Part shown: in pieces, positions 1,783-31,469 of the stretch
How positions within the stretch are numbered: the first letter of the stretch is position 1
How the letters are laid out: each line of letters opens with the position of its first letter
IMG/VR virus record: IMGVR_UViG_3300005563_000074
Span: 1 to 32,462 of that record
Source of the DNA: a virus
DNA length: 32,462 bases
Direction: 5' to 3' (one strand)
Translations under genes and position numbers: made by a program
The notes under the pieces: generated by a model
Database searches by the model: none
The model's input: only the letters and a program-made list of their open reading frames with translations
Told to the model about the DNA's origin: nothing

Positions 1783-2062
1783 TCATTGCGGCAATACCAT
1801 ACGTAATCCCAAAGTACTATCATTCGGTGATCTGAAGGGGGTTCTTAGTCGCAATGAAGCACAACACCGAGCCGTGATGCAGCAGGTGCAGGCTTTACAT
1901 GCTAATGTGCAGTACATACCACCACAAGCAGGACCTGTCTCAGCAAAACAGTCTGGTGTGCCTGAGATAGGTGTAACACACGTTGACTTGTGCCCCACTT
2001 GCGTTCCTATTTGGCTGGAGCGCGTGAAGGCCCTTTGCAAGGCTTCGGACCCCGATGTTTGA
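1760..2062 (+). CDS. Small zinc-ribbon-like protein
   Basis: 100 residues from ATG 1760, preceded by GGAAAGGA (1744-1751). Two CxxC pairs, CDHC (C7, C10) and CPTC (C78, C81), sit at the two ends with a Gln/Ala-rich spacer between them, as expected for one structural zinc site. The longer in-frame start at 1661 would add 33 residues that lie wholly inside the phosphoesterase gene in another frame, so I rejected it. The gene overlaps the upstream SbcD-like gene by 23 bases and the downstream SbcC-like gene by 8 bases, placing it inside the recombination operon. A role as an accessory or regulator of the nuclease complex is inference from position only; it could equally be a transcription-associated zinc finger. 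Confidence 0.65.
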   Translation: MATRTFCDHCGNTIRNPKVLSFGDLKGVLSRNEAQHRAVMQQVQALHANVQYIPPQAGPVSAKQSGVPEIGVTHVDLCPTCVPIWLERVKALCKASDPDV

Positions 2063-3899
2063 CCTTCACAGGATAACGCTGTTCAATTTCCGGTCTTACA
2101 ACGGCAGCCACACTTTTGATTTCCCAACAACGGACGGCCTGTATTACTTCACAGGCCGTAATCTGTTTGAGCCTGAGTTAGGGGCCAACGGGGCAGGCAA
2201 GTCCACCATGCTGGATGCCATTACGTGGTGCCTGTACGGCTGGACCACGCGCGGCCTCAAAGCCAATGAGGTCCTTTCATGGTTCGGCGGGGTAAGCACT
2301 CACGTCGTGCTTGAACTGACCGTTGGCAAGAAGCGTTTCACAGTGAAGCGCTCACAGAAGCCCAATGGCATTTGGATAGATGATAAACCGGTTGACCAGC
2401 GTGAACTGGAGACCCATTTAGGCCTCAATTACGAGGCCTTTACGCATTCAGTCATCAGTCCGCAATTCGGTGACCCTTTCTTTGACAAGTCACCGTCTGA
2501 CAAGCTGAAGCTCTTCTCAGATATCATGAAGCTAGACTACTGGCTCACCCTTAGTGATTTGACCGGCAAGATAGTCACCTCACTTGAAAATGACATTGCT
2601 GGCTTCGTCCGGGTGATTGATCAGCATGAGGGCAAGATTGAGATAGCCAAGGCTGACATTGAAATACTTGAATTGAAGGAAGCTACTTTCGAGGCTGATA
2701 AGCAAAAGCAGCTGACTGCTATCAAAGCTGAGAGCAAGGCCACGTATAAAGACGTTAAGAAGTTTGAAAAGATGGCAGAAATACAGGTTGACCTAGAGGA
2801 GGGACTCAAGGGTGAGCTGAGTGATGCCAAAAAAGATCTTGTGCGCTACAAAGCGCATGTGGATTTCATACTTGAGTCGATATCTAACGCAAACAGAGAG
2901 AAGGACCGCGCTCTCACCACACATGAGACTGCCTTGTCAGCAACCAAGCGTATGGGCTTCAAGGGATCATGCCCGCATTGTGGTCAAGAGATGGACGCCG
3001 CTCATGCCACTAGGGAAAAACAACGTAATGAACAAACGATGGCTCATTGTGGGAAGGTCATAAAAGACCAACAAACTGCGATTGAAAAACACCTGAGGGA
3101 TTTGGTACGGGCCAAGGGTAACGTAGCCAAGACTGAAGAAATAATTGATGAAATAAAGGAGGAAATGCGGATTTGGGCTACCAAGCTGGAACGCGCTCAG
3201 GACGCAGCCAAGGGGGCAGCGGCCAAGTTTGATGAATTGGGTGAACGCCTTCACGCCTTGGAAAAATCAACCAACCCGCATACTGAGATGCTGGCTCGCA
3301 AGCGCACTCAATTGAAGGCTTACAAGAAGATCATTGCTGAGAGCACTGAAACCCTCAATGAATTGGAAGCTGAACGTGAGGGCTCAGTATATTGGGTGAA
3401 GGGGTTCAAGCGGATTCGCTTGTTTATCATCGAGCAAGCTTTCAGGACATTGGAAATTGAAGTCAACAACTGCCTTGCTCAGCTGGGTATGGTGGATTGG
3501 CAGGTTACCTTTGATGTTGAGCGGGAGAACAAATCTGGGGGCATCACCAAAGGTTTTGTGGTAATGATCAAAAGCCCCAGCAACAAAGAACCTGTACGTT
3601 GGGAGAACTGGTCAGGGGGTGAGACGCAACGGCTGCAATTGGCCGGTGACATGGGGTTATCCAACCTCATTATGCAGGGGGCGGGGCTCAGCAACACAAT
3701 TGAGTTCTATGATGAACCTTCCACGCACCTATCGCCGGAAGGCATGATGGACTTGGCTGACTTGTTGCATGAGCGCGCCGTCAACGAGGGTAAGCGTATA
3801 TGGATAGTAGACCACGCCTCAATCACCAATTTTGGCGGCTTTGAAGGCGTCATCACAGTGGAGAAAACAAAAAATGGATCAGCTATCGTTCACTCCTGA
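2055..3899 (+). CDS. SbcC/Rad50/T4 gp46-like SMC-family ATPase
   Basis: 614 residues. The N-terminal half-domain has the Walker A GANGAGKST (residues 43-51) after the typical ITLFNFRSY opening. A long coiled coil follows (about 190-450), interrupted at its apex by a CPHCGQ zinc hook (C306, C309). The C-terminal lobe carries the ABC signature WSGGETQR (519-526) and Walker B EFYDEPSTHLS (D553, E554). All the elements of a Rad50/SbcC ATPase are present and intact. At 614 residues it is much shorter than bacterial SbcC (about 1000) and close to phage gp46. It should dimerise through the hook and gate DNA ends to the phosphoesterase encoded two genes upstream. The start overlaps the zinc-ribbon gene by 8 bases. 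Confidence 0.92.
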   Translation: MFDLHRITLFNFRSYNGSHTFDFPTTDGLYYFTGRNLFEPELGANGAGKSTMLDAITWCLYGWTTRGLKANEVLSWFGGVSTHVVLELTVGKKRFTVKRSQKPNGIWIDDKPVDQRELETHLGLNYEAFTHSVISPQFGDPFFDKSPSDKLKLFSDIMKLDYWLTLSDLTGKIVTSLENDIAGFVRVIDQHEGKIEIAKADIEILELKEATFEADKQKQLTAIKAESKATYKDVKKFEKMAEIQVDLEEGLKGELSDAKKDLVRYKAHVDFILESISNANREKDRALTTHETALSATKRMGFKGSCPHCGQEMDAAHATREKQRNEQTMAHCGKVIKDQQTAIEKHLRDLVRAKGNVAKTEEIIDEIKEEMRIWATKLERAQDAAKGAAAKFDELGERLHALEKSTNPHTEMLARKRTQLKAYKKIIAESTETLNELEAEREGSVYWVKGFKRIRLFIIEQAFRTLEIEVNNCLAQLGMVDWQVTFDVERENKSGGITKGFVVMIKSPSNKEPVRWENWSGGETQRLQLAGDMGLSNLIMQGAGLSNTIEFYDEPSTHLSPEGMMDLADLLHERAVNEGKRIWIVDHASITNFGGFEGVITVEKTKNGSAIVHS

Positions 3900-4595: not shown

Positions 4596-5123
4596 TTAGG
4601 CTCGCGGGTTGACTACGGTGAAGCCTGCCAGTGAGCGCACGTGGATGCGTGTCCGGTGACCACCTGAGTTGGGGTCATAGGCAAGTACCTTCCCGTTACC
4701 CAGAACCTGCTCAATAGCGAACACATGCCCTCTACGGGCCGCCGCCATGCCGGGGGCCGGGGCAGCGCGCGGGAAGCGCAGCCAGTTGGCAGCCACCCAC
4801 AGGGACCGAATCGGGGCACCCAACAGCCTTACAGCCACGCCACAGCCACAGAACGCACGTGAGGGGCACCCCGAGGGGTGCGCTACGACCGTATTAGCGG
4901 CCCGCTCATGCGTTATTTCACTGCGGCGCTCATATACCGGCTTGGCCGCGCCAAACCCACCCATGGCCTTTACAATGCGTTCACCACGGGGGGATTTGAT
5001 GACGCCTTCACAAGGCCAAAGGATGTTGCAGCCTTCCGCAGCAGCTTGGACGCGATACTTGCGGGCCTCAGCTGGGGCCGCCATGAACAGTAGAAGCGCG
5101 ATGAGGGTGAGTGCGGTTTTCAT
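4596..5123 (-). CDS. Exported Cys/His (CHAP/NlpC-like?) protein of a rhizobial type
   Basis: 175 residues from the ATG at 5123, chosen because AGAGAGG lies 8 bases upstream; the in-frame ATG at 5129 is too close. The N-terminus MKTALTLIALLLFMAAPAEA is a clear Sec signal peptide cleaved near AEA-R. The mature part has GCPSRAFCGCGVAVRLLG (C92, C94), LWVAANWLRFPRAAPAPGMA, RRGHVFAIEQ (H133) and YDPNSGGHRTRIHVRS. A Cys followed by a His in a G-H-V-F context resembles papain-like CHAP/NlpC peptidase folds. From memory this sequence type is common as an uncharacterised exported protein in Rhizobiales and their phages. It might act on peptidoglycan in the periplasm, late in lysis or in superinfection control. 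It is the last gene of the leftward late region. Confidence 0.72.
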   Translation of the reverse strand: MKTALTLIALLLFMAAPAEARKYRVQAAAEGCNILWPCEGVIKSPRGERIVKAMGGFGAAKPVYERRSEITHERAANTVVAHPSGCPSRAFCGCGVAVRLLGAPIRSLWVAANWLRFPRAAPAPGMAAARRGHVFAIEQVLGNGKVLAYDPNSGGHRTRIHVRSLAGFTVVNPRA

Positions 5124-5214: not shown

Positions 5215-5601
5215 CTATATGCCTGTTCCTTGAACGAAGCACCAAACATAGCCGTAACTGTTGACAAAGAGAATGGCGTGGCCGGTTGGATTGCCACGGT
5301 CGTACTTCAATTTCACATCTGGTATTTCAAATTCGGTCCCCATCGCAATGTGGGGCCTGCCCAAGGGTGCATCAGGGCGATCATCCGTTATCTTGCAATA
5401 GGTCTTGCCTTTGCGCACTGAAATATCATCGCACCAATAGGCGTCAGCCTCACCACAGCATGAATTCTGGGGCGCGTCAGGGCGCATCAAGCCTTGATAC
5501 CATTCACGCACTTTAGGGTCAGCAGTTTCCCACTGACCGTTGTCACGCGCGAAGCTGGATGAGGATAAAAGGGTCAGGCACAACGCAAACAACAGTTTCA
5601 C
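5215..5601 (-). CDS. Small exported conserved protein of unknown function
   Basis: 128 residues from a GTG at 5601. The GTG overlaps the upstream stop as GTGA, and GGGTCAGG lies just upstream. The N-terminus MKLLFALCLTLLSSSSFARD is a signal peptide. The mature protein has a double cysteine in NSCCGEADAYWCDD, then DDRPDAPLGRPHIAMGT and GNPTGHAILFV. The SCCGEADAYW and D-x-x-DAPL-x-RPH patterns recall an exported protein seen repeatedly in Rhizobiales genomes and related phages (recollection, not searched). Four or more cysteines suggest periplasmic disulphides. The role is unknown. It travels with the Cys/His exported protein next to the lysis genes, so a periplasmic function during lysis or infection is a reasonable guess. 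Confidence 0.7.
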   Translation of the reverse strand: MKLLFALCLTLLSSSSFARDNGQWETADPKVREWYQGLMRPDAPQNSCCGEADAYWCDDISVRKGKTYCKITDDRPDAPLGRPHIAMGTEFEIPDVKLKYDRGNPTGHAILFVNSYGYVWCFVQGTGI

Positions 5602-6277: not shown

Positions 6278-6679
6278 TCAGTTCCCCATGGGTACGTTGG
6301 CCGCCGCAGCTTGCGCTTTCACGGTCGTCACCAACTTTGAGATGTTGTTGTACACCACCGTAGCGTTGACCTGATCGTCGTTCTTCACGAACTCACGAAG
6401 CTGGGCCAAGTAAGGCGGAATTTGACGCGTATACACCTGCACAGCGCCAATCTGCTTTTCGCAGTCAGTGTTGATCAGGCGTTGGGCACAGCTTTGCTTC
6501 CACGTGTTCAAGCCAGCGAACACGAGGGTGGTTGCCGCCTCCAGCTGATTGAGGCGCGTTTTGGTCACCGGGTTGGCCACCGATGCGGTGCCAATGCTGA
6601 TGACGTCCTGAAGCTTCTGAAGCTGGGCACAACCACCCAGCGACAGGGTTACCAGAGCTACTGCAAGAAGTTTCTTCAC
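6278..6679 (-). CDS. Phage lipoprotein in the lysis cluster (possible outer-membrane spanin role)
   Basis: 133 residues from GTG 6679, which overlaps the holin stop as GTGA. The N-terminus MKKLLAVALVTLSLGGC is a type II signal peptide with lipobox LGGC (C17), so the mature protein is lipid-anchored. The mature part is mostly helical, with two further cysteines (SCAQ, DCEK) about ten residues apart and a long helix (YLAQLREFVKNDDQVNATVV). The position right after endolysin and holin would suit an outer-membrane spanin. However, 133 residues with little proline is atypical for Rz1, so the spanin role is only a suggestion. The lipoprotein call itself is firm. Confidence 0.75.
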   Translation of the reverse strand: MKKLLAVALVTLSLGGCAQLQKLQDVISIGTASVANPVTKTRLNQLEAATTLVFAGLNTWKQSCAQRLINTDCEKQIGAVQVYTRQIPPYLAQLREFVKNDDQVNATVVYNNISKLVTTVKAQAAAANVPMGN

Positions 6680-7893: not shown

Positions 7894-9201
7894 TTAACGC
7901 GCTCTACGTGCCGATATGAACCCAAACGCACCGTTGGTGCCTGAGAAGTTGCACAAGGTGCTTAGAAAGATTGTGGTTGTACCAGACAGGCTAAAGCGAA
8001 TCTTACCTACAGGTCCACCATAGGTCGCCGTCGTGGAAATGCTGTTCTGAGCGTACGCACCACTGTTGGGGGCAGTCGGCAGTGAGGCTGACGTTGAACT
8101 TATCCACGCGATGTAGGCAGTTTGTGTACCTGCGGGGGCCGTAAGAACAACACCCTCTACATCCCAATCACCAGCGGTTAGAGAAATGGAAGTTACGTTT
8201 GCTGCGGTTCCTGTAGTTAGAGATACCGCTGAACCAGACAAAACCGTTTGTGAGACAAATTCACCAACTTGGCCCGCTGCCGCGTTGTCGTTAGTGTTTG
8301 TGCCTTCTTGCTGAATACCACCACCGCCTGAACGCGACAGCGCCGCAGTGGTGTCAGCAATGATCAAGGCAGAGTTCTGACCGAGCTTGCCCGTAGCCAA
8401 GTCAAACCGGACCGCTGCATTGTCAGTTGACGATGCCGGGCCCACAAAGTCACCGCCGCCAGCGGGCACTGACCAAACACCATCGCCACGCCAAAAAGTT
8501 GACGACGATGCGCTGGTACCACTATTGAGGTTGGTGACCGGAAGGTTACCGGTGACATCGGCCGAAAGGCTGACTGCGGCCCATGACGGGTTGCCTGCCG
8601 CGTTGCCGTGCAGGACCTGCGTCGTAGTGCCTTGGTTGGCGTGCTGAGCCGATGCAAGGGTGTCAGTGGTACACGTGCCGGTGCCCGTAGCCGAGATAGC
8701 CGTGAGGAACTGGTTGGTGCAGGTTGACGTGGTGATGTTCAGATGGGACGAGGTCACCTTGCCCCAAGATGAGACAGTGCCTACACCGCCTGAAATCAGC
8801 ACGTTGCCAGTCGCCACAGCTGCAAGCCGTGCCAAAGCACTCGTTGAACTGGCTTGCAGAAGATCACCAATAGCCAACGTGGTGATACCAGTGCCGCCGC
8901 CTGCCACAGTCAAGGCACCGTAGGCCAGATCAGCGCCAGCGCCGCCACTGACCAACGGGAACGCTATCGTACCCGGTGCCAAACAGACCCATGCGGACGC
9001 ACCGCGATAGAGCAGGCTGCCACGCGCACTGCACGTGAATTGTTGGTCAAAGATGGCACCAATGGAAACACTGCTTCCATAGGCCGCAGTCGCGCCTGAG
9101 TTGCCCCAGACGTTGCCGGGTTGAAGCTTGCCAATCGATTGGCCGAATGCAGCACTGATGGACAGTGCTGCAATGAACAGGGCTGTGATTAGTTTTTTCA
9201 T
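7894..9201 (-). CDS. Tail fiber / receptor-binding-like protein with signal peptide
   Basis: 435 residues from ATG 9201, which overlaps the upstream stop as ATGA; the extension to 9243 has no support. It opens with [21 protein letters not shown], a textbook signal peptide. It continues with a [21 protein letters not shown] segment, low-complexity Gly/Ser/Thr-rich repeats with GGGTGITTL and [10 protein letters not shown] motifs typical of phage fiber stalks, and a compact C-terminal domain (about 310-435, [14 protein letters not shown] to FISARRAR) that looks like a beta-rich receptor-binding head. It is the third of three fiber-type genes in a row and directly precedes the endolysin. The signal peptide is odd for a virion protein and may mean it is displayed on the cell rather than the particle. 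Confidence 0.72.
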
Positions 9202-23135: not shown

Positions 23136-24551
23136 CTACTTGGCCAGTGTCAAGTTTGCTTCTTGAGCCGGTATGCACTTTTCGAGTTCTACCTTAACAT
23201 TTTGCATCATTCCAGCCCAGTCATGCGGCTTCGGCTGGACGAACTGTCGAACTGACGGATACCACGGACTATCTGCCCTGTCACCAAACCAGCGCCAACA
23301 GCCATCCCAACGGCTAAGTATCCATGTGGGTGCGCCGATTGAAGCCGCTACGTGTGCGACAGCAGTATCCACAGTGATAACCATGTCGCAATTCTTGATG
23401 GCACACGCTGTCTCATAGAAGTCATACATATCCTCGGTGAAGTCACCGATAGTCATGCCGCGCAAGGGTTCCTTGATTTGTTCAGCTGGCGGCCCCTTCT
23501 GAAGGGACACCCAAGTGATGCCCTTGAGCAATGCCAAGGGTGCGAACGTGCTGAGTTCAGTGGACCTAAGGCTGTCGATGGCAGCTGCATGCGGCTGACC
23601 ACTACGTGCCATGCCGGACCAGCACACACCAACCTTCAAACCGGGTGGAAGTTGCTTGAACTTCTCAGCCCAACGAGCAACGTCATGCGATTTGATTGTG
23701 AACTCATGGGAGGAAGGTGGGATGGCCCCCATGTTGGGAGTGAGCATGCCTGCAAGGGTGAGCATGGGCACGCCGTAGTCCAGTTTGGGCAACCGTTCGC
23801 CAACATTGATCACTGCGTAGACATTTCGCATGCTGCTGAGCAGACGGTGAACTGGCGGCCTGCATTCAACGATGACTTTGGCGGTTGGAAACCGTTTAGC
23901 AAGGATGGAAGCGTACCGGGCGAACTGAATAATGTCACCCAAACCTTGCTCACCGTACACAAGGATGGTTTTGCCGCTCAGATCTTCACCCTTCCATTGC
24001 GGGCACTTTAACCCTCGTGGCGGCAGTTGGGCAGTTTTCCATCGCCACTCATACTCAGCCCAACCTTCTTGCAAATGACCGGCTTTCAGTAGCGCCATGG
24101 ACAGGCACAGGTGGCTGTCGGCATAGTTGGGATCAGCGCCAATGGCATTGCGGTAGCACTGGATGGCAACGTTCAACTGACCTTTGTATTTGTAGATGTT
24201 GCCTAGGGTCTGAAAGGTGGCTGCCATGGGGTTGATGGCAATTGCCTTCTCAAGGCAGGGGACGGCTTTTTCAGCGTTGTAAACGTCCCAGTAGGCGCAG
24301 CCTTTGTTGCTGTGAAGGATGGCTGTTTGAACTTCGTCGTTCTCAAGGGCTAGGGCCCTGTCATAGTTCAGTATGGCGTCAAGTGGAAAGCCCATCCCGG
24401 CATATGCCTGACCCCGAGTTGACCATACCCAAGGAAGGTTTTCATCGTATTTCAGTAGTTCGGTGGCCCAAACTGCCATGTCATTCAAGTTGACAGCGGC
24501 ACGTGCTTGCATAAATAGTTCTTTACATTCCTCAAAGCTTTTACGCTGCAT
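23136..24551 (-). CDS. TPR-containing glycosyltransferase (GT9/SPINDLY-like C-terminal domain)
   Basis: 471 residues from ATG 24551 (GAGG 5 bases upstream); the in-frame extension to 24590 runs into the terminator hairpin. The N-terminal ~150 residues contain about four tetratricopeptide repeats (WSTRGQAYAGMGFPLDAILN, GNIYKYKGQLNVAIQCYRNA, ALLKAGHLQEGWAEYEWRW). The C-terminal domain is a glycosyltransferase of the kind fused to TPRs in many Proteobacteria: ILVYGEQGLGDIIQFARY (200-206 core), KVGVCWSG, and near the end TVDTAVAHVAAS (395-400), RWFGDRADSPWYPS. It should transfer a nucleotide-activated sugar to a protein, possibly a capsid or secreted protein encoded nearby. Its position after the decoration gene and before head genes is unusual. 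Confidence 0.85.
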   Translation of the reverse strand: MQRKSFEECKELFMQARAAVNLNDMAVWATELLKYDENLPWVWSTRGQAYAGMGFPLDAILNYDRALALENDEVQTAILHSNKGCAYWDVYNAEKAVPCLEKAIAINPMAATFQTLGNIYKYKGQLNVAIQCYRNAIGADPNYADSHLCLSMALLKAGHLQEGWAEYEWRWKTAQLPPRGLKCPQWKGEDLSGKTILVYGEQGLGDIIQFARYASILAKRFPTAKVIVECRPPVHRLLSSMRNVYAVINVGERLPKLDYGVPMLTLAGMLTPNMGAIPPSSHEFTIKSHDVARWAEKFKQLPPGLKVGVCWSGMARSGQPHAAAIDSLRSTELSTFAPLALLKGITWVSLQKGPPAEQIKEPLRGMTIGDFTEDMYDFYETACAIKNCDMVITVDTAVAHVAASIGAPTWILSRWDGCWRWFGDRADSPWYPSVRQFVQPKPHDWAGMMQNVKVELEKCIPAQEANLTLAK

Positions 24552-24572
24552 GTTATCCTCACTGGTTACTGA

Positions 24573-24605
24573 TAAAAAGAAGGAGGGCACATGGCCCCCC
24601 TTCTT
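24573..24605 (-). terminator. Intrinsic terminator after the decoration-like gene
   Basis: On the - strand the stem AAGAAGG (24605-24599) pairs with CCTTCTT (24583-24577), continued inside by a GGGC/GCCC pairing past one mismatch and a 5-base loop, and followed by TTTTT then A (24578-24573). It lies about 25 bases past the stop of the 191-residue gene and before the TPR-glycosyltransferase start. It probably limits expression of downstream genes relative to the abundant head protein. Confidence 0.72.
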
Positions 24606-24630: not shown

Positions 24631-25206
24631 TTACGCCGAAGCGCCGACCACCGGGTAGTTCAGCACTGCGGTATTCGGGCCAGCGGTAGAGCCGTTGGCT
24701 TGCGAAATCACAAGGCCGTTCACCTGATAGGTGGTGCCGACGCCGCCAGCGGTCGAGCCGACGATGCCTGCCGTGGTGGCGCTCGAATAAAGCTGAGCGT
24801 TCTTGGTGGCGGTAGCTGCGGTCTTCACGTTCGGGGCATTACCCGCACGCTGGACCCAGAAGAACGCGGCAGTCTGCGGAGCTGCCGGGGCCGGGATAGC
24901 AATGCTACCAGTGCCACCGCCAGTTACGCCGATAAGCTGACCAACCGGTGCCGAAGCTGCCGCAATGGTTGCGCCGCCGATGAGGGCAACGGACCATGCG
25001 CCGGGGACGGCGCTGACCACGACCACCGAACCGGGGGCAATGGTAATCGATGCGGTGCAGTAAACCCACTCCGAACCGTCAGTGCCCCAAGCAAGGGTGC
25101 CGGGCAGGAACGGAGGACGCGGGTATTCCGGGGTACCGGAACTGAGCATGAAGACGTCATTGATATCGACGCCTTCCATCGTAGAGGTGTTATAGAGGGT
25201 CGCCAT
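24631..25206 (-). CDS. Head decoration / coat-associated protein
   Basis: 191 residues from ATG 25206 with AGGAG 7 bases upstream. It is beta-rich with small residues: TLAWGTDGSEWVYCTASITI, SVVVVSAVPGAWSVALIGG, AAFFWVQRAGNAPNVKTA, GTTYQVNGLVISQANGST. It shows the composition and length of phage head decoration or minor coat proteins; no unique family motif is recognised. It has its own candidate promoter in the 141-base leader upstream and a terminator downstream, consistent with high expression. The antisense 253-residue frame over it is a shadow. A role as capsid glue or decoration is inference. Confidence 0.65.
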   Translation of the reverse strand: MATLYNTSTMEGVDINDVFMLSSGTPEYPRPPFLPGTLAWGTDGSEWVYCTASITIAPGSVVVVSAVPGAWSVALIGGATIAAASAPVGQLIGVTGGGTGSIAIPAPAAPQTAAFFWVQRAGNAPNVKTAATATKNAQLYSSATTAGIVGSTAGGVGTTYQVNGLVISQANGSTAGPNTAVLNYPVVGASA

Positions 25207-25347: not shown

Positions 25348-26799
25348 TCAGCAACTTGCCAAGGTGAGGTTGCCGCCAGTTAGCAAATTCTTGTTCGTGG
25401 TGCCGCAGCTGATCGTTCCCTGATACGGCCCGCTGCCTGAGCGGATCAAAGCTCCGTTTGCAACCCCGGCCCCGACAGTTGGCACATTCAGTGTAATGGA
25501 CGTGGACGTGGTGGACTGTGAGTATGTCGCCGTGGTCTGCGTAGGAGCAGGGATCGATGACAGGTCACTCAAGTTCCAGACAAAGCTGGCTGCAAATGAA
25601 GTTACGCCACCTTGTACCGGATTGCTGGTATTGATGGCTCCACACGATCCAAAGTTCGAGAACGTATTGACGTTTGAGAAATGCAGGATGGCATTGCCTG
25701 CGGCAGTGCTGCCATTCGTCGTTGCCGTGCCACAGCCGTTCAACTGACCGACAAAGGCCCAGCTTGTGGTCGATGGAAAGCAATCGGTGCAGTCGATGTA
25801 ATTGTTCTGCATCGTGCCAGAGCCGTTGAGCCACGGCGTTTCAATAATAGCGAACCCGTTCGCAATGCCACCACCAAAAGACTGTGTGATAAGCGCCGTA
25901 TTGTTCGAAACGTCCATCGACGAGGCGGAGTTATTGGTGTTGCCTGCCGCTGACAAGATGCTCAAGCCCTGTCCGGCAGCCGAACTAACGTTTGCCAACA
26001 ACAGATTGTAGTTCGTGATCAATGTTGAGTAGTCACCAGCCGGGAAACTTCCATTGCCAAATATCTGTAGAAGATCGCCGTGCTGCGCACAACATTGTGC
26101 GCCCTGCCCGGCATTGGCGAGAATGTTGTACTTGATCGTCAGGTTAGTCCCAGTAGCGGTTGCTCCCAGCTGCAAAAGAACGGCGAACGCATTGCTGATG
26201 TAATTGTACTGGATGACTTGCGTGCCACCACCAAAAACAGAGACTACACCGACGTTGGGTGAGGTCTGGATGCCAGCCCCGTCTATAACGTTGTTCTTGA
26301 TAGTAAAACTGGTGATGGAACTGCCACCGCTTGAGATTGGTGGCAATGCATTCGCCCCAACGACGAACTTGCTGTTTTGAACAACGGTCCCGTTGCCCAT
26401 GGTGAGGCTCCAGCCGCCGCCTACTGAGAAGTCCCATCCGTCAACGACAACACCGGTATTGTTGGTCTGACAAATATGCGTCCCACTTGTGCACGTCATG
26501 CCTGAGGGTGGCGTCGTGACACCGGGTATCTTGGTTGGCGCTGTGGCGTATCCTACAAGATAGTGCACACCAGCCACACACCATGTCGGTGCGTTGGACC
26601 CGTAGGTATTGAGTATCGTAGGAAACTGAGGAGTGCCAGACGGTGCGCCAGCAAACCCGTCACTACCATTCGTAGTGCATGTGCCGGTCACAGCCGTATT
26701 GTTGACTTGAAAACTGGCAAATGCCGCGAGGGCGGCAGATGCTATACAAAGCAGCCCAAGGACCGCTGACACTCTGCGTAGAATTCCAAATAATTTCAC
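25348..26799 (-). CDS. Exported beta-helix (pectate-lyase-like fold) protein
   Basis: 483 residues from GTG 26799 (AAAGG 7 bases upstream). The N-terminus MKLFGILRRVSAVLGLLCIA and following ALAAFA form a Sec signal peptide. The body repeats short strands with Asn ladders: FTIKNNVIDGAG, VIQYNYISNAFA, LTIKYNILANAG, STLITNYNLLLA, MDVSNNTALI, GTMQNNYIDC. This is the pattern of a right-handed parallel beta-helix, a fold common in tailspikes and polysaccharide lyases. Several cysteines (TCTTNG, WCVAG, QCCAQ, CTDCF) suggest disulphides outside the cytoplasm. It could bind or degrade surface polysaccharide. The signal peptide argues against simple virion assembly in the cytoplasm. Confidence 0.74.
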   Translation of the reverse strand: MKLFGILRRVSAVLGLLCIASAALAAFASFQVNNTAVTGTCTTNGSDGFAGAPSGTPQFPTILNTYGSNAPTWCVAGVHYLVGYATAPTKIPGVTTPPSGMTCTSGTHICQTNNTGVVVDGWDFSVGGGWSLTMGNGTVVQNSKFVVGANALPPISSGGSSITSFTIKNNVIDGAGIQTSPNVGVVSVFGGGTQVIQYNYISNAFAVLLQLGATATGTNLTIKYNILANAGQGAQCCAQHGDLLQIFGNGSFPAGDYSTLITNYNLLLANVSSAAGQGLSILSAAGNTNNSASSMDVSNNTALITQSFGGGIANGFAIIETPWLNGSGTMQNNYIDCTDCFPSTTSWAFVGQLNGCGTATTNGSTAAGNAILHFSNVNTFSNFGSCGAINTSNPVQGGVTSFAASFVWNLSDLSSIPAPTQTTATYSQSTTSTSITLNVPTVGAGVANGALIRSGSGPYQGTISCGTTNKNLLTGGNLTLASC

Positions 26800-26802
26800 T
26801 GA

Positions 26803-27603
26803 TCAGCCTTTCAACGCTACGAGCAGACAAGGATACAATTTAGATTGAGCAACAGCACCAGTTATTGTTTCAGTGGTAGAGGTTGCGGTAGCGAGAGCTT
26901 TTGACGCTACCATCAAGATACTCCCGGACGAGGCCTGAGTTACCAGAGCCCTCGAAGTCATATCTGATGGCACGGCTAGGGTGCCGAGAGTCGTCACGTC
27001 GTCAGTCATCATAATCAAGAGGAGAACATCTGGCGACGAGGCGTTGGAAAGTGAGCCCGTGGCTGGGCATAGGATGTTTGTGGTCACACCGTTGGGTGTT
27101 GTGGTGGATGCAGCATCCACCGGAGTCGTCGCATTGGTACCTGTGAAATTCGCTATCACCCACGAATTGAAGACGTTATTGACCCAGCTAAAGGTATAGG
27201 CGCACGTCTCACCACCACCAACAACATGCCAATACCATGCGTAATAGCTGCCCAAGGAGGTTTGTGAGGTACCGAGCTGCGTCCATCCAGCCGGTGGGGT
27301 AATCGTGTCACTGGTTTCATTGTATAACTGGATGCCAACGATATTCGTCGTCCCAGCTGTCAACGTTCCGCAAGCTACCCCTACTGATGTCGACCCCACC
27401 GACGTGGATGTTCCTTGCGGTGGGAAGGCATTGCCCTGATAAGCGACCCAGTTGAAGGCAGGTGTGCCGCCTGCTGGTGTGGCATCAAGCGCAGCCCGGC
27501 TCTGGAACGTACCGGGCGGGAAGCCCGGTACCATGGGTGATTGAGCAGCGGCCTGCACGCATAGCAGGAGCCCGCAAAGAAGTGCGAAGACTGCCTTACG
27601 CAT
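26803..27603 (-). CDS. Exported beta-rich protein of unknown function
   Basis: 266 residues from ATG 27603, in a TAATG overlap with the upstream gene; the extension to 27624 lacks support. MRKAVFALLCGLLLCVQAAA is a signal peptide cleaved near AAA-QS. The mature protein is Ser/Thr/Gly-rich and beta: ACGTLTAGTTNIVGIQLYNE, TPPAGWTQLGTSQTSLGSYY, AWYWHVVGGGETCAYTFSW. The PPAGWTQLG...YAWYWHVVGGGET run resembles the concanavalin-like or fibronectin-like domain commonly found in phage and secreted bacterial surface proteins (recollection of pattern, not a search). It is the fourth of five consecutive exported products. It may be surface-displayed or carbohydrate binding; function unproven. Confidence 0.66.
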   Translation of the reverse strand: MRKAVFALLCGLLLCVQAAAQSPMVPGFPPGTFQSRAALDATPAGGTPAFNWVAYQGNAFPPQGTSTSVGSTSVGVACGTLTAGTTNIVGIQLYNETSDTITPPAGWTQLGTSQTSLGSYYAWYWHVVGGGETCAYTFSWVNNVFNSWVIANFTGTNATTPVDAASTTTPNGVTTNILCPATGSLSNASSPDVLLLIMMTDDVTTLGTLAVPSDMTSRALVTQASSGSILMVASKALATATSTTETITGAVAQSKLYPCLLVALKG

Positions 27604-29189
27604 TAGGTGAACTTTCCATAGCAAGTGACGATAACGTTAGCCCCGGTGGTGACCTTCCACGCACCAGCGGTGCTGACTGCGCCTACCGGTACTGAGATCG
27701 GAACTAAATTCGAGGTAGAACTTGAACCACCTGCGAACGCAATGGCATTCGTGCCAGCCGCGTTCGTGTTGTCAAATACAGTCACAACACCCGGTGAGGT
27801 CGTGACAGGGTAGATGACACAATGCGACAGGTAGTCACCGGTAGCGCCAGTAGGACCGAGAACTTGAGCGGTCTGAGATGCCGCCACGGTTTCGTAACCA
27901 CTTGCACCACTGATGACCTTCTGATTTCCAGCAGTGTCAGTCGCAAGGGTGCGGGCATTGGTGCCGTCAGAACCTGCTATCAGATTTGGATTGCCGCTGA
28001 CCGCTGCGCCATTGGCAGCGTTGCCCTTGACAGCTACCGCCGCCTGATCGCTTGCAATGACCACAGGCGAAGAGCTGGCCGACACCGCCGAACCGTTAGC
28101 GTTCGTGTTGGTCACGAAGGCGTTGACGGCAAGGGCATTCAGGCCGGTTGGCGTGGTGCCGTATGCAGTCGAACGCATCGCCACCATGTTGGTGCCGTCA
28201 CTCATGCCAACTGCGGTGCCGGGGGTCGGGAAGGCCGAACCAAAGTTGGAGCTCGTGCCACCCGCCGCCGCGCCCGCCGCCGTATTGACTTTGAGGTAGC
28301 CGTTTGCGTCCAGCTGAAGCGATGATTGCTGGGTGTTGGTCAAGGTCAGCGGGGTGGAGTTGAACACGCCGCCTGTCAGGAACGAGTTGGCCGCTGCGGT
28401 ACCAGCATTCTTGGTACCTTGGAAGGTCAACAAGTCAACCATGGAGCCAGTGGCGAATGCACCAGATGCATATGCGCCAGAAGCCACAGCACCTGAGGCA
28501 AAGGCACCGCTTGCAATTGAGCCCGATGCATAGGCACCGGATGCCACTGATCCCGAAACCATAGTGGGGGCCGTAGTGAGCCGGTTCGATGCGTCAACGT
28601 TGACACCGCGCTCGTTGCCAGCCGCGTCACGGATGGTTCCGTACAAGTTGCGGTTGGCGCTCATACGCAAGAAGCCGAAGTTATTTTCGGTGATTGCGGT
28701 GGGCGAGGTATCGTCGAACACAGCCGCGTTGGCGGCGTTAATGCCGGTATTGGCTGAGGCCGAGTTCATCGTGGAAACGGGCACGGTGCCCGATTGAATG
28801 AACAGGGGCGTCATGGACGCAATACCCTGCACCGTCTGCACGCCTGCCGCAGCCGCGCCAGCGGTGCCGCTGCCAGTGATCAGCCAAGGAGTGGTGTTCG
28901 CGGTGTTGCCGGGCTGAACGGTCCACGTACCTGACTGGGTGGCCGCTACAGTACCCGAGACAGGCTGTGTGGTGGCCGAAGCGTCAACCTTGAGGGCTCC
29001 ACCCGCACTGACGGACCCGCACTGTGCGGGCGTCGTAAGGTCACACAAAAACATCTGAACGTAGTGAATGCCGCCTACGGTCACCGAACCAAACGTGGTT
29101 CCTGCGCCTTGCGTCATCGCGTAGTTGCCCAAGGCCGCCGCAGAGCAGAGGCCAATCAAGGCAACTAATGAGAGTAGAAACTTGCGCAT
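27603..29189 (-). CDS. Exported repeat-rich fiber-like protein
   Basis: 528 residues from ATG 29189 (GGAG 6 bases upstream; extension to 29228 rejected). MRKFLLSLVALIGLCSAAALG is a signal peptide. The mature protein has an N-terminal beta domain (FGSVTVGGIHYVQMFLCDL), TVAATQSGTWTVQPGN-type fiber repeats, then eight five-residue units of the SGAYA type, and a large beta-rich C-terminal half (QLDANGYLKVNTAAG, PVVIASDQAAVAVKG, GVVTVFDNTNAAGTNAIAFA). The TWTVQPGN and SSPVVIASDQ phrases occur in putative phage structural proteins. It is the largest protein of the exported block and probably a trimeric fiber or surface layer component. Whether it reaches the virion is open. Confidence 0.68.
   Translation of the reverse strand: MRKFLLSLVALIGLCSAAALGNYAMTQGAGTTFGSVTVGGIHYVQMFLCDLTTPAQCGSVSAGGALKVDASATTQPVSGTVAATQSGTWTVQPGNTANTTPWLITGSGTAGAAAAGVQTVQGIASMTPLFIQSGTVPVSTMNSASANTGINAANAAVFDDTSPTAITENNFGFLRMSANRNLYGTIRDAAGNERGVNVDASNRLTTAPTMVSGSVASGAYASGSIASGAFASGAVASGAYASGAFATGSMVDLLTFQGTKNAGTAAANSFLTGGVFNSTPLTLTNTQQSSLQLDANGYLKVNTAAGAAAGGTSSNFGSAFPTPGTAVGMSDGTNMVAMRSTAYGTTPTGLNALAVNAFVTNTNANGSAVSASSSPVVIASDQAAVAVKGNAANGAAVSGNPNLIAGSDGTNARTLATDTAGNQKVISGASGYETVAASQTAQVLGPTGATGDYLSHCVIYPVTTSPGVVTVFDNTNAAGTNAIAFAGGSSSTSNLVPISVPVGAVSTAGAWKVTTGANVIVTCYGKFT
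28437..28556. repeat. Eight 15-base tandem units encoding SGxxA pentapeptides
   Basis: On the - strand the codons read SGSVA, SGAYA, SGSIA, SGAFA, SGAVA, SGAYA, SGAFA, TGSMV. The DNA units differ at many third positions, so the periodicity is kept at protein level. Such five-residue repeats with a small-small-x-x-Ala pattern suit a thin helical or fibrous stalk. Confidence 0.75.
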
Positions 29190-29200
29190 GATTGTCTCCG

Positions 29201-29425
29201 TTACATTCCTAACATGGGAAGGGGGCATCCTGCTGATGCGTCAATTACGCCCGTACCGCAATTAACCGGAGGCGGCGCTGTGCCGCTGCCGATACCGCCA
29301 GTGAGCGGGAAGCGACCCGTAAAGCCGTATTGGTTGGTACGGCCCAACCTTCCTGAGATGTCAGAGCCCGCAGAGGCTATCGCTGATAGCCCCAGTATGA
29401 GAAGTAATGCGAGCCAATACCTCAT
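29201..29425 (-). CDS. Small exported protein
   Basis: 74 residues from ATG 29425, in a TAATG overlap with the upstream gene. MRYWLALLLILGLSAIASAG is a signal peptide cleaved near ASA-G. The mature ~54 residues include RLGRTNQYGFTGRFPLTGG, a Gly/Pro-rich linker and two cysteines (NCGTG, GCPLP) that could form one disulphide. No family is recognised. It belongs to the exported block and may be a small periplasmic or surface partner of the larger fiber-like protein that follows 11 bases later. Confidence 0.6.
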   Translation of the reverse strand: MRYWLALLLILGLSAIASAGSDISGRLGRTNQYGFTGRFPLTGGIGSGTAPPPVNCGTGVIDASAGCPLPMLGM

Positions 29426-29799
29426 TAGGAGTTTGCCGTTCCTTGCACGAAGCTAATTGTGCCCGTGCCGCCTGAAATGACTGCGAAATACAAACCACTG
29501 ATGCCAACATTCAACACCACGAAGCTATTGGCGGGAAGCAGGAGGTCAGTGAGCAATGCTGTGGTGTTGCTGGCAGTGCCAAGGCGGTAGCGCACGTCAC
29601 TGGCTGAGTTGTTGTAGACGATGACCGTCTCACCGCACGTGCTCATGCGGCGGTTAGTTGAGACACCTGAGAATGAAACGTCAGCCGGTTGGGCTGAGAT
29701 CACACAAGGCGTGATGCCTAGCTGAGGGGCGCTGAAAGCTGGCAACACCCATGTCAGGAAAATGATGGAAGCCAATAGTGCCGAAAGGGATCGTTTCAC
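29425..29799 (-). CDS. Small exported beta-rich protein
   Basis: 124 residues from GTG 29799 (GGAGAG 6 bases upstream, GTGA overlap with the upstream stop). MKRSLSALLASIIFLTWVLP plus AFSA is a signal peptide. The mature part is about 100 residues of beta strands: CVISAQPADVSFSGVST, CGETVIVYNNSASDVRYRLG, LLPANSFVVLNVGISGLYFA. The TVIVYNNSASDVRYRLG...LLPANS pattern looks like a compact beta-sandwich of the kind seen as small phage-encoded head or stalk-tip domains. Two cysteines (PCV, TCG) may pair. It is the first of the exported block after the coiled-coil protein. Confidence 0.62.
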   Translation of the reverse strand: MKRSLSALLASIIFLTWVLPAFSAPQLGITPCVISAQPADVSFSGVSTNRRMSTCGETVIVYNNSASDVRYRLGTASNTTALLTDLLLPANSFVVLNVGISGLYFAVISGGTGTISFVQGTANS

Positions 29800-30215
29800 T
29801 TTTGGCTCTCCTTATTGATGGTCACCCCGTTAATATCCGCGGTGCCAGTCTGTGGCTGGGTATCTGAGGTCTCTGAAGAAGAAAAATTTGAGCCGCTGTC
29901 ACCGAGGAAGTCCTCGACCTCCGCATTTGCCTCACTGAGTTCCAAGGCAAGCGACTTGACCTTGCTGGCGTTGACCTGTGCCCGTGCGGCCTCAGACATG
30001 AAATGGGCTTTGGCGTCAGCACTGCCTTTTCTCAAGGAGGCCAGAACGTCCTTCATGCCAGCAGCTAATTCCTTCACTTCGCGCATTTTTTCTGTCCACA
30101 ATCTTTGGTTTTCGAGCTCCACCCATTCTTGCAGAGCCCGGTTTACTCCATGCAGTAACAACGTACACAGTGCGATGTCCTGCTGGAGGCGGTTCCCATC
30201 TTCCAAACCTGTCAT
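29796..30215 (-). CDS. Coiled-coil protein of the head region
   Basis: 139 residues if ATG 30215 is used; ATG 30233 and GTG 30290 are in-frame alternatives, and none has a convincing ribosome site. A helical coiled-coil body is evident (LQEWVELENQRLWTEKMREV, KELAAGMKDVLASLRKGSAD, KVKSLALELSEANAEVEDF), followed by an acidic Ser/Thr-rich tail ending NKESQK. It has no signal peptide, unlike the five genes after it. It follows the major capsid gene and a strong hairpin, so it may be a minor head or assembly protein. The uncertain start is the main weakness of this call. Confidence 0.55.
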   Translation of the reverse strand: MTGLEDGNRLQQDIALCTLLLHGVNRALQEWVELENQRLWTEKMREVKELAAGMKDVLASLRKGSADAKAHFMSEAARAQVNASKVKSLALELSEANAEVEDFLGDSGSNFSSSETSDTQPQTGTADINGVTINKESQK

Positions 30216-30299
30216 CGAAACTGGCCGGTCCATGGATTGCGGCGTACAGGGCAAGCAACGCATATATGTGATAATCCACGCTACACCCACTTAGAAAGG

Positions 30300-30361: not shown

Positions 30362-31393
30362 TTACGCAGTCAGAACGCCCTGAAGGAACGCGTTGCTCAG
30401 GGTCATGTTGCCAGCCCAGCCAATCAGGCGGACCATGGCATCTTGGTTCACTGAGAAACGGTCCGGATCAAGGGGGACCATGTTGCGGCGGGCATGCGGA
30501 CGCCACATGATGTACTTGGTATTGAGGAAGTACATCGTGGTGGACGGTGCACCACCCAGCGCCGAGGTGGACGAGCTCAGCTGCGGCGGCAGCGGGTCCG
30601 AGGCAAAGCCTTGGAAGCCACCGTCCAGCACTACGTCGGCGTTCAGATACTTCAGGGACTGGAAGCCAGCCTCTGCCATATCAGGTGCGCCGTTCTCAAC
30701 TTGGATACGCTGAATGGCCTGAAGGGCATTCAGGTAATAACGGTAGGTCGTGTTGTCCGCGATGATCAGGTCCGGGAAGTCACGGCCACGGATCAGCTTC
30801 ACCCACAGCGCGTCCATTTGCTGCATGATGGTTGCGGACGACAGCACGCTGTTGCCGTCAGTTGCGGCCGACCAAGTCTGGTTCTGCCAGAACTGCCACT
30901 GCGAACGGTCAATGCCGCCCACGGTGCCCGACGACGGCGAGCTGGAAACGAGCAGCTGAAGGCCGCCCACGGAGCCGGTGACCGAACCGTCGCCGTAGAT
31001 GCCCTGTGACAGGCCGTTCATGAACGTATCTTCGGCGTTCATGATGCGCGACTCAAGCAGGTCGATGATGGCCTCTTCACCCGAGTTCTGGAGCTCTTCC
31101 AGACCGCTGATGGAAACGGCAACCGCTGCCTGACGGATCGGGTATTCAGCAGCCGAGAAGACTTGGCTCGGTGCGATGTTGAGGGTCTGGTAACCCGAGT
31201 ACCATTGGTACGTCTGGTTGTCAGCGTAGTTGAGCTCTTGAACGATGGTACGACCACCGCTGAAGGTCTTCACGTTGCCACGGCGACTCAAGCGAAGCAG
31301 GGCGGCGTTGTTGCGGGACATGTTGTCCGCGAGTTCGCCGGTGCGGTTGCGCAGGGTCGTGGTGACAATTTCCGAGAGATTTGGAAATGCCAT
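30362..31393 (-). CDS. Phage major capsid protein
   Basis: 343 residues from ATG 31393 with GGAG 6 bases upstream; the longer start at 31405 has none. The N-terminal part MAFPNLSEIVTTTLRNRTGE, ELADNMSRNNAALLRLSRRG is followed by a GGRTIVQELNYADNQTYQWYSG strand region. A typical P-domain helix then carries AAVAVSISGLEELQNSGEEA, IIDLLESRIMNAEDTFMNGL. The C-terminal half has FPDLIIADNTTYRYYLNALQ and TTMYFLNTKYIMWRPHARRN. This is the order of an HK97-fold capsid subunit of the type found in short-tailed phages of Alphaproteobacteria. It follows a scaffold-type gene, as required for procapsid assembly. The call is by pattern and context and fairly safe. Confidence 0.82.
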   Translation of the reverse strand: MAFPNLSEIVTTTLRNRTGELADNMSRNNAALLRLSRRGNVKTFSGGRTIVQELNYADNQTYQWYSGYQTLNIAPSQVFSAAEYPIRQAAVAVSISGLEELQNSGEEAIIDLLESRIMNAEDTFMNGLSQGIYGDGSVTGSVGGLQLLVSSSPSSGTVGGIDRSQWQFWQNQTWSAATDGNSVLSSATIMQQMDALWVKLIRGRDFPDLIIADNTTYRYYLNALQAIQRIQVENGAPDMAEAGFQSLKYLNADVVLDGGFQGFASDPLPPQLSSSTSALGGAPSTTMYFLNTKYIMWRPHARRNMVPLDPDRFSVNQDAMVRLIGWAGNMTLSNAFLQGVLTA

Positions 31394-31469
31394 AATGGGC
31401 TCCATTGGATCAAGGGGTTGAGGACGCTACGCAACACGTCAACCTAATGGTACCGCTGGAGGATGAGGC

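Follow-up and report, generated by a model that had tools for sequence, protein, structure and literature searches.

The binding and degradation targets of a phage are determined by its fibres and spikes, and the common assumption is that their synthesis and assembly take place in the cytoplasm. Lom, Cor and Llp are phage conversion and exclusion proteins that are exported, and they are single small outer-membrane proteins or lipoproteins. Here, a block of five consecutive genes (A to E) is described, which lies in the capsid module of a soil phage. It is contained in IMG/VR record IMGVR_UViG_3300005563_000074, positions 1 to 32,462, and this whole stretch of 32,462 nucleotides is called the window below. 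Like Lom, Cor and Llp, the five products would be carried over the inner membrane, but those proteins do not form a fibre/enzyme cassette in a capsid module. The set of the window is an exported edition of phage appendage and depolymerase modules, which is recurrent and recognisable.

The last three genes of the block, C, D and E, belong to a cassette that recurs in other phages. Phage tailspikes and depolymerases of the pectate-lyase beta-helix and GDSL esterase types have in common with this cassette the carbohydrate-active folds, an exchangeable enzyme slot and fibre- or lectin-like partner genes. However, ordinary tailspikes have no signal peptide and fold in the cytoplasm, whereas leaders and cysteine pairs are present on the whole set of the cassette, and the E protein of the window is unclassified. 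A signal peptide is at odds with the usual definition and E could not be assigned a fold, and the window set was therefore not filed as a tailspike or depolymerase. Two proteins of cultured phages, gp19 of Burkholderia phage BcepC6B and orf035 of Xanthomonas phage PBR31, have MKKL-type signal peptides and the same C-terminal tail-fibre domain as a second signal-bearing fibre of the window. They are encoded by single genes that are flanked by the holin gene on one side and by a tail fibre or tailspike gene on the other, in contrast to the five-gene block in the capsid module, and they are annotated as "tail fiber" and "putative structural protein", with export not mentioned. For the PBR31 esterase gp40 the authors noted a signal peptide and a likeness to tail-associated hydrolases (PMC10975493). 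Unlike the block, it is encoded beside the lysis genes, and the authors took it to assist lysis. Conceptually, the closest published relative is a soil viral chitosanase, which is also a phage-encoded carbohydrate-active enzyme from soil, but was cast as a metabolic gene in a paper whose text is silent on signal peptide, secretion and capsid (PMC9485262). A literature search, which many subscription journals lay beyond, revealed no account of exported fibre or spike cassettes.

Signal peptides and cysteine pairs

An initial annotation of the window had claimed five open reading frames of 124, 74, 528, 266 and 483 residues, which were said to be tightly coupled and to begin with signal peptides throughout. 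The sizes were exactly as claimed, and the coupling was verified by reading the junctions directly from the sequence. The junction into gene A is GTGA, TAATG joins A to B (124/74) and also C to D (528/266), 11 bases with a GGAG site ahead of the ATG of the 528-residue gene separate B and C, and the spacing between D and E (266/483) is 3 bases. Signal peptides were called with a rule-based procedure, which uses a positive n-region, an uncharged h-region and the -3/-1 rule. It found 18 of 18 Escherichia coli signal peptides that served as a check, and it was falsely positive at 14 of 10,667 internal methionine positions (0.13%). The caller was silent on the neighbouring capsid, connector and tail genes of the window (0 positive), and all five block products were positive for Sec signal peptides of the cleavable type, including the -3/-1 motif, as had been claimed. 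Lipoprotein leaders were considered for A to E and rejected, as no lipobox was called in any of them. In relatives, two E genes seem to bear twin-arginine (Tat) leaders instead of Sec leaders, which read SRRDFVHG and SRRDFVHA, and thus export itself rather than one leader type appears to be kept.

The cysteine contents indicate that the leaders are used. Among 662 proteins of these phages, the mature parts of signal-bearing proteins contained 1.66% cysteine (n = 43), compared with 0.65% in the others (n = 619; Mann-Whitney p = 7.5e-11), and cysteine counts were even in 28/38 signal-bearing versus 143/365 other proteins. The number of mature cysteines is even in each of A, B, C, D and E. Two domain families of about 100 residues, A8 and A9, occur both with and without leaders. 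A8 is present at 80 viral loci as well as in cultured phages of Caulobacter and Octadecabacter, and its cysteine pair was found in 26 of 26 distinct signal-bearing members versus 0 of 40 signal-less ones. The second cysteine always lies within a GIGFCLTG motif, and signal-less members have alanine, arginine, glycine or serine at this position. In A9, which is the C-terminal domain of C in the window, both columns hold cysteine in all 13 signal-bearing members and in none of the 28 signal-less ones. For the scoring, L117, L187 and L189/L190, just outside the rule, were taken as signal-bearing by eye, and L188 was omitted because its 5' end is missing. The co-segregation is perfect, yet it does not represent many independent events, because the trees require few label changes between signal-bearing and signal-less. 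The minimum on the best trees was 2 and 4 for the two families, and well-supported branches force one change in each.

An additional single case was found in the phage L195. Its A-slot protein has a leader and a second mature cysteine, and it is homologous (E = 1e-17) to a signal-less protein of 101 residues from sister phages (the sister set comprised forty viral contigs whose capsid proteins are related, at 75-96% identity). Among fibres with C-type domains, the cysteine content was 0-0.41% in signal-less and about 0.8% or more in signal-bearing proteins. Export is well supported because the signal peptides, the co-segregating cysteine pairs in two domain families and the single case of L195 agree, and it is strongly implied at the sequence level that the block proteins undergo Sec export and oxidative folding.

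The C-D-E cassette and its genomic site

Loci that encode an A9 domain repeat one order of genes, namely a signal-bearing C, a signal-bearing D and a large signal-bearing E, and in most cassettes C and D overlap by one base, with the start of D inside the stop of C. Right after the leader, the mature D protein begins with [LM]PGFPPGxFxxRxALD or close variants in 11 distinct phages (window, L185, L187, L191, L192, L193, L195, L197, L200, L201 and L202), and differing C-terminal domains follow behind this shared N-terminus. A hidden Markov model of it gave E values of 1e-10 to 1e-15, which measure coherence and are not an independent discovery, as the model was built from the same members. The window fits the cassette definition, having a signal-bearing C with A9, the one-base overlap, a D with the PGFPPG motif and a signal-bearing E. 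L195 has the full order A-B-C-D-E, all five genes being signal-bearing. The E slot of other cassettes is occupied by a pectate-lyase beta-helix (E = 5.9e-10), a GDSL lipase (E = 1.4e-7) or a BNR/sortilin beta-propeller (E = 1.6e-10), and ConA-like lectin domains were found in the D slot at low scores below the curated cut-off. The D protein of L050 matches PHROG 553, "minor tail protein" (E = 1.5e-8); the D protein of the window had no match there. Leaderless cassettes of the same architecture are present in L008, L204/L205 and L210. By comparison with related phages, the products of the block are predicted to be exported, disulfide-bonded versions of fibre-like and sugar-cleaving spike-like proteins, which in other phages are cytoplasmic products.

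The individual products were compared with known proteins and folds. Orthologues of A in L002, L004, L033 and L030 all have leaders, and both cysteines are invariant. An AlphaFold2 (AF2) model of A predicted a small beta-sandwich at low to moderate confidence (predicted template modelling score, pTM, 0.61), which resembles uncharacterised phage proteins (TM 0.4-0.6); A was also considered as a capsid decoration protein, and no convincing match was obtained in the PDB. Homology of A to the 101-residue A-slot protein of sister phages was considered, but only an iterated hidden Markov model search joined the pair and profile comparison failed to do so, and therefore the two are taken as positional analogues only. 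Gene B, the least secure of the five, is regarded as real because L033 has an orthologue at the same place with the same C-terminus, the last 16 residues being identical (GVIDASAGCPLPMLGM end). C shares a motif with signal-less fibres of L045, L056, L061 and L064, and its domains are common to signal-less capsid-proximal fibres, so that its earlier description as fiber-like is supported. No host genomes carrying the fibre motif of C were found. It was also considered that the N-terminal anchor of signal-less C proteins might be kept in signal-bearing ones, but the similarity was not significant (best E = 0.018).

No match was obtained when cultured phages were searched directly for C, D and E, or viral contigs for D and E; in cultured phages, the queries for D and E were copies from relatives and the E of the window. 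The 483-residue E had been described as a beta-helix protein, which could not be confirmed. The AF2 prediction without alignment (pLDDT, the predicted local distance difference test, 35) was too low to establish a fold, no Pfam or PDB match was found, and the spacing of NN/YN turns is at most suggestive of a beta-helix. In other phages the same slot carries pectate-lyase-like beta-helix proteins.

The stretch between the capsid gene and h191, here called the cargo site, is hypervariable across the sister contigs. It is nearly empty in L002/L004, which have the coiled-coil gene and a signal-bearing A alone, and in L011/L014, it is filled with mostly signal-less fibre-like sets in L005, L006, L008, L012 and L013, and signal-bearing genes are present in the window and L033. 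Homologues of the coiled-coil protein adjoin the major capsid protein (MCP) in L002, L004, L005-L007, L010-L014 and L033. In named genomes (Rhizobium, Paraburkholderia and others) capsid proteins are 42-73% identical, and the exported block is absent from the prophages with related capsids found there. Rhizobium prophages have the bare core order MCP-h191-connector-tail, with h191 directly after MCP, and Stenotrophomonas phage BUCT555 has a holin and an endolysin near the equivalent point. Because sister phages and named prophages are without the five genes, the block was concluded to be an insertion. At this locus it takes the place of the cytoplasmic appendage genes that are found in sister phages.

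Table 1. Positions of the five genes, their conserved parts and landmark genes in the window.
Feature	Position	Strand	Characteristics
Gene A	29425-29799	-	124 aa; signal peptide and small beta-sandwich (predicted); invariant Cys pair
Gene B	29201-29425	-	74 aa; signal peptide; Cys pair
Gene C	27603-29189	-	528 aa; signal peptide and fibre-like repeats
C-terminal A9-family domain of gene C	27606-27914	-	Cys pair SHC ... VTCYGKF
Gene D	26803-27603	-	266 aa; signal peptide; start overlaps C stop by one base
Proposed anchor of D, the conserved start of the mature protein (MVPGFPPGTFQSRAA...)	27490-27534	-	common to 11 distinct phages
Gene E	25348-26799	-	483 aa; signal peptide; 12 mature Cys; orphan sequence in enzyme slot
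Major capsid protein, landmark upstream of block	30362-31405	-	PHROG 9953 major head protein, E = 2.7e-106
Coiled-coil-like protein between capsid gene and block	29796-30290	-	conserved in sister phages
h191, 191-aa conserved core gene closing the cargo site (downstream landmark)	24631-25206	-	present in most sister phages
Second signal-bearing fibre, tail/lysis region	7894-9201	-	signal-peptide call; near lysis genes

Some further observations were made at and around this site. In L023 (13534-19631) and L026 (13406-19075) the cargo site appears by eye to hold sugar-nucleotide or surface-polysaccharide genes (epimerase-like and mutase-like), which is a further connection of this locus to polysaccharide. 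Twin-arginine-like leaders (RRSFLKG...) were seen on small sister-phage proteins (L005:7923-8267, L012:2282, L023:4546, L028:8893 and L037:5919), and those of L005 and L012 are encoded upstream of the capsid gene. A TPR protein with a weak match to glycosyltransferase family 9 (23136-24590, minus strand) is encoded in the window between h191 and the connector gene, and it is conserved in many sister phages. An 836-residue signal-bearing protein with 34 cysteines and no Pfam match ends a run of signal-bearing genes in L110 (9872-12379).

Possible functions of the exported set

The interpretation that was given the greatest weight, with about even chances of being correct, is that the products of the five genes are an exported set of appendage proteins that bind and cleave carbohydrates. 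Their targets would be polysaccharides of the cell surface or the matrix, on which they would act outside the cytoplasm and most likely as free proteins. An exported lectin- and depolymerase-like set aimed at extracellular polysaccharide fits better than the three options of the initial annotation, which were coating or modification of the infected cell surface, a block of superinfection, and structural proteins that pass through the periplasm at lysis. During infection, the five proteins would be made from genes beside the capsid operon and carried over the inner membrane by Sec, the signal peptides would be removed, and disulfide-bonded folding would occur in the periplasm; the sequences argue strongly for these steps. 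C would be a modular fibre-like protein, D would dock via its conserved mature N-terminus and bear an exchangeable, probably carbohydrate-binding domain, and E would occupy the slot of carbohydrate-active enzymes, which is supported for the relatives and presumed for the window. The conserved gene order and coupling, together with the conserved N-terminus of D, suggest that C, D and E may assemble into a complex, which would bind and cleave polysaccharide of the surface or matrix. The free proteins would first reach the envelope and, once the cell lyses, the surroundings, where they might open the matrix and remove binding sites near the burst, so that progeny could escape.

Several points weigh against this polysaccharide-directed function. 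Past their N-termini, D and E of the window match nothing in the databases searched. As both are orphans and the fold prediction for E failed, a binding or enzymatic role of these two proteins is assigned by position only, and the structure prediction for A was modest. The co-occurrence of leaders and cysteines goes back to few independent switches, and the crossing of the outer membrane before lysis is left unaccounted for.

It is possible, albeit doubtful, that the products are instead virion parts matured in the periplasm. Disulfide-bonded exported appendages would then dock on capsids or tails once lysis mixes the compartments, D via its N-terminus. Homologous signal-less cassettes are present at the same capsid-proximal locus, D combines a conserved N-terminus with a variable C-terminus like virion-anchored spikes, and the second signal-bearing fibre of the window shares its C-terminal domain with annotated tail fibres. 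However, assembly after lysis would suffer from dilution, and the N-terminal motif of signal-less C is not significantly kept in signal-bearing C. The corresponding general proposal, that particle assembly of some tailed phages is finished outside the cytoplasm, with disulfide-bonded fibre, lectin and depolymerase subunits being exported, matured in the periplasm and added at lysis, is equally doubtful; if it were true, the assembly of a Caudoviricetes virion would be divided between compartments.

A coating of the cell surface or masking of receptors is rather unlikely. In this case the exported proteins would bind or strip receptors of the infected cell, exclude competitors and stop progeny from sticking to the dying cell, which is in line with their export, with their lectin- and hydrolase-like relatives and with the location of the block within a structural, presumably late, operon. 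Late expression would, however, be late for exclusion, and most known superinfection-exclusion proteins are small and located in a membrane or the outer membrane. Furthermore, no PF00589 integrase was found in 12 large contigs (55-101 kb, perhaps fragments) with related capsid genes or cassettes, so that lysogeny, and hence a lysogen to protect, is not indicated. It is improbable that the genes are host-benefit cargo, for auxiliary enzymes that would nourish the infected cell by degrading carbohydrates, as has been reported for auxiliary genes of soil viruses. Carbohydrate-active domains do occur in the E slots and the soil viral chitosanase sets a precedent (PMC9485262), but the block is a coupled fibre-lectin-enzyme set in a capsid operon, has domains in common with phage fibres, and is not a lone metabolic gene. 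The most improbable explanation is that these are ordinary virion proteins whose N-termini are anchors that stay uncleaved or are hydrophobic by chance, given the co-segregation of cysteine pairs with leaders, the -3/-1 cleavage motifs, the low false-positive rate and the Tat leaders in the same slot.

Some tailed phages may thus arm the extracellular space as well as the particle. From the recurrence of the cassette it follows that proteins which bind and cleave carbohydrates are deployed outside the infected cell by many environmental phages, or that virions are finished there, and genes of such cassettes should be read as neither ordinary tail genes nor metabolic auxiliary genes. The combination of a leader with a cysteine pair offers a simple sequence signature for finding exported appendage genes, and the cultured phages BcepC6B and PBR31 carry signal-bearing fibres that are open to examination.

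The second signal-bearing fibre and the lysis region

The fibre gene in the tail/lysis region is the sixth structural-type gene of the window with a signal peptide. The C-terminal domain of its product is that of Pectobacterium and Klebsiella phage tail fibres, and it is common to the tail fibre of Pectobacterium phage CB5, BcepC6B gp19 and PBR31 orf035; the latter two share both the leader and the domain with it. The lysis region also encodes small signal-bearing proteins and a lipoprotein that is o-spanin-like by eye (4596-5123, 5215-5601 and 6278-6679, minus strand). The 5215-5601 protein (RDNGQWETADPKVREWY) has a look-alike at L196:10567. On the opposite strand, a nuclease pair that resembles SbcD/SbcC by eye is encoded at 760-1782 and 2055-3899.

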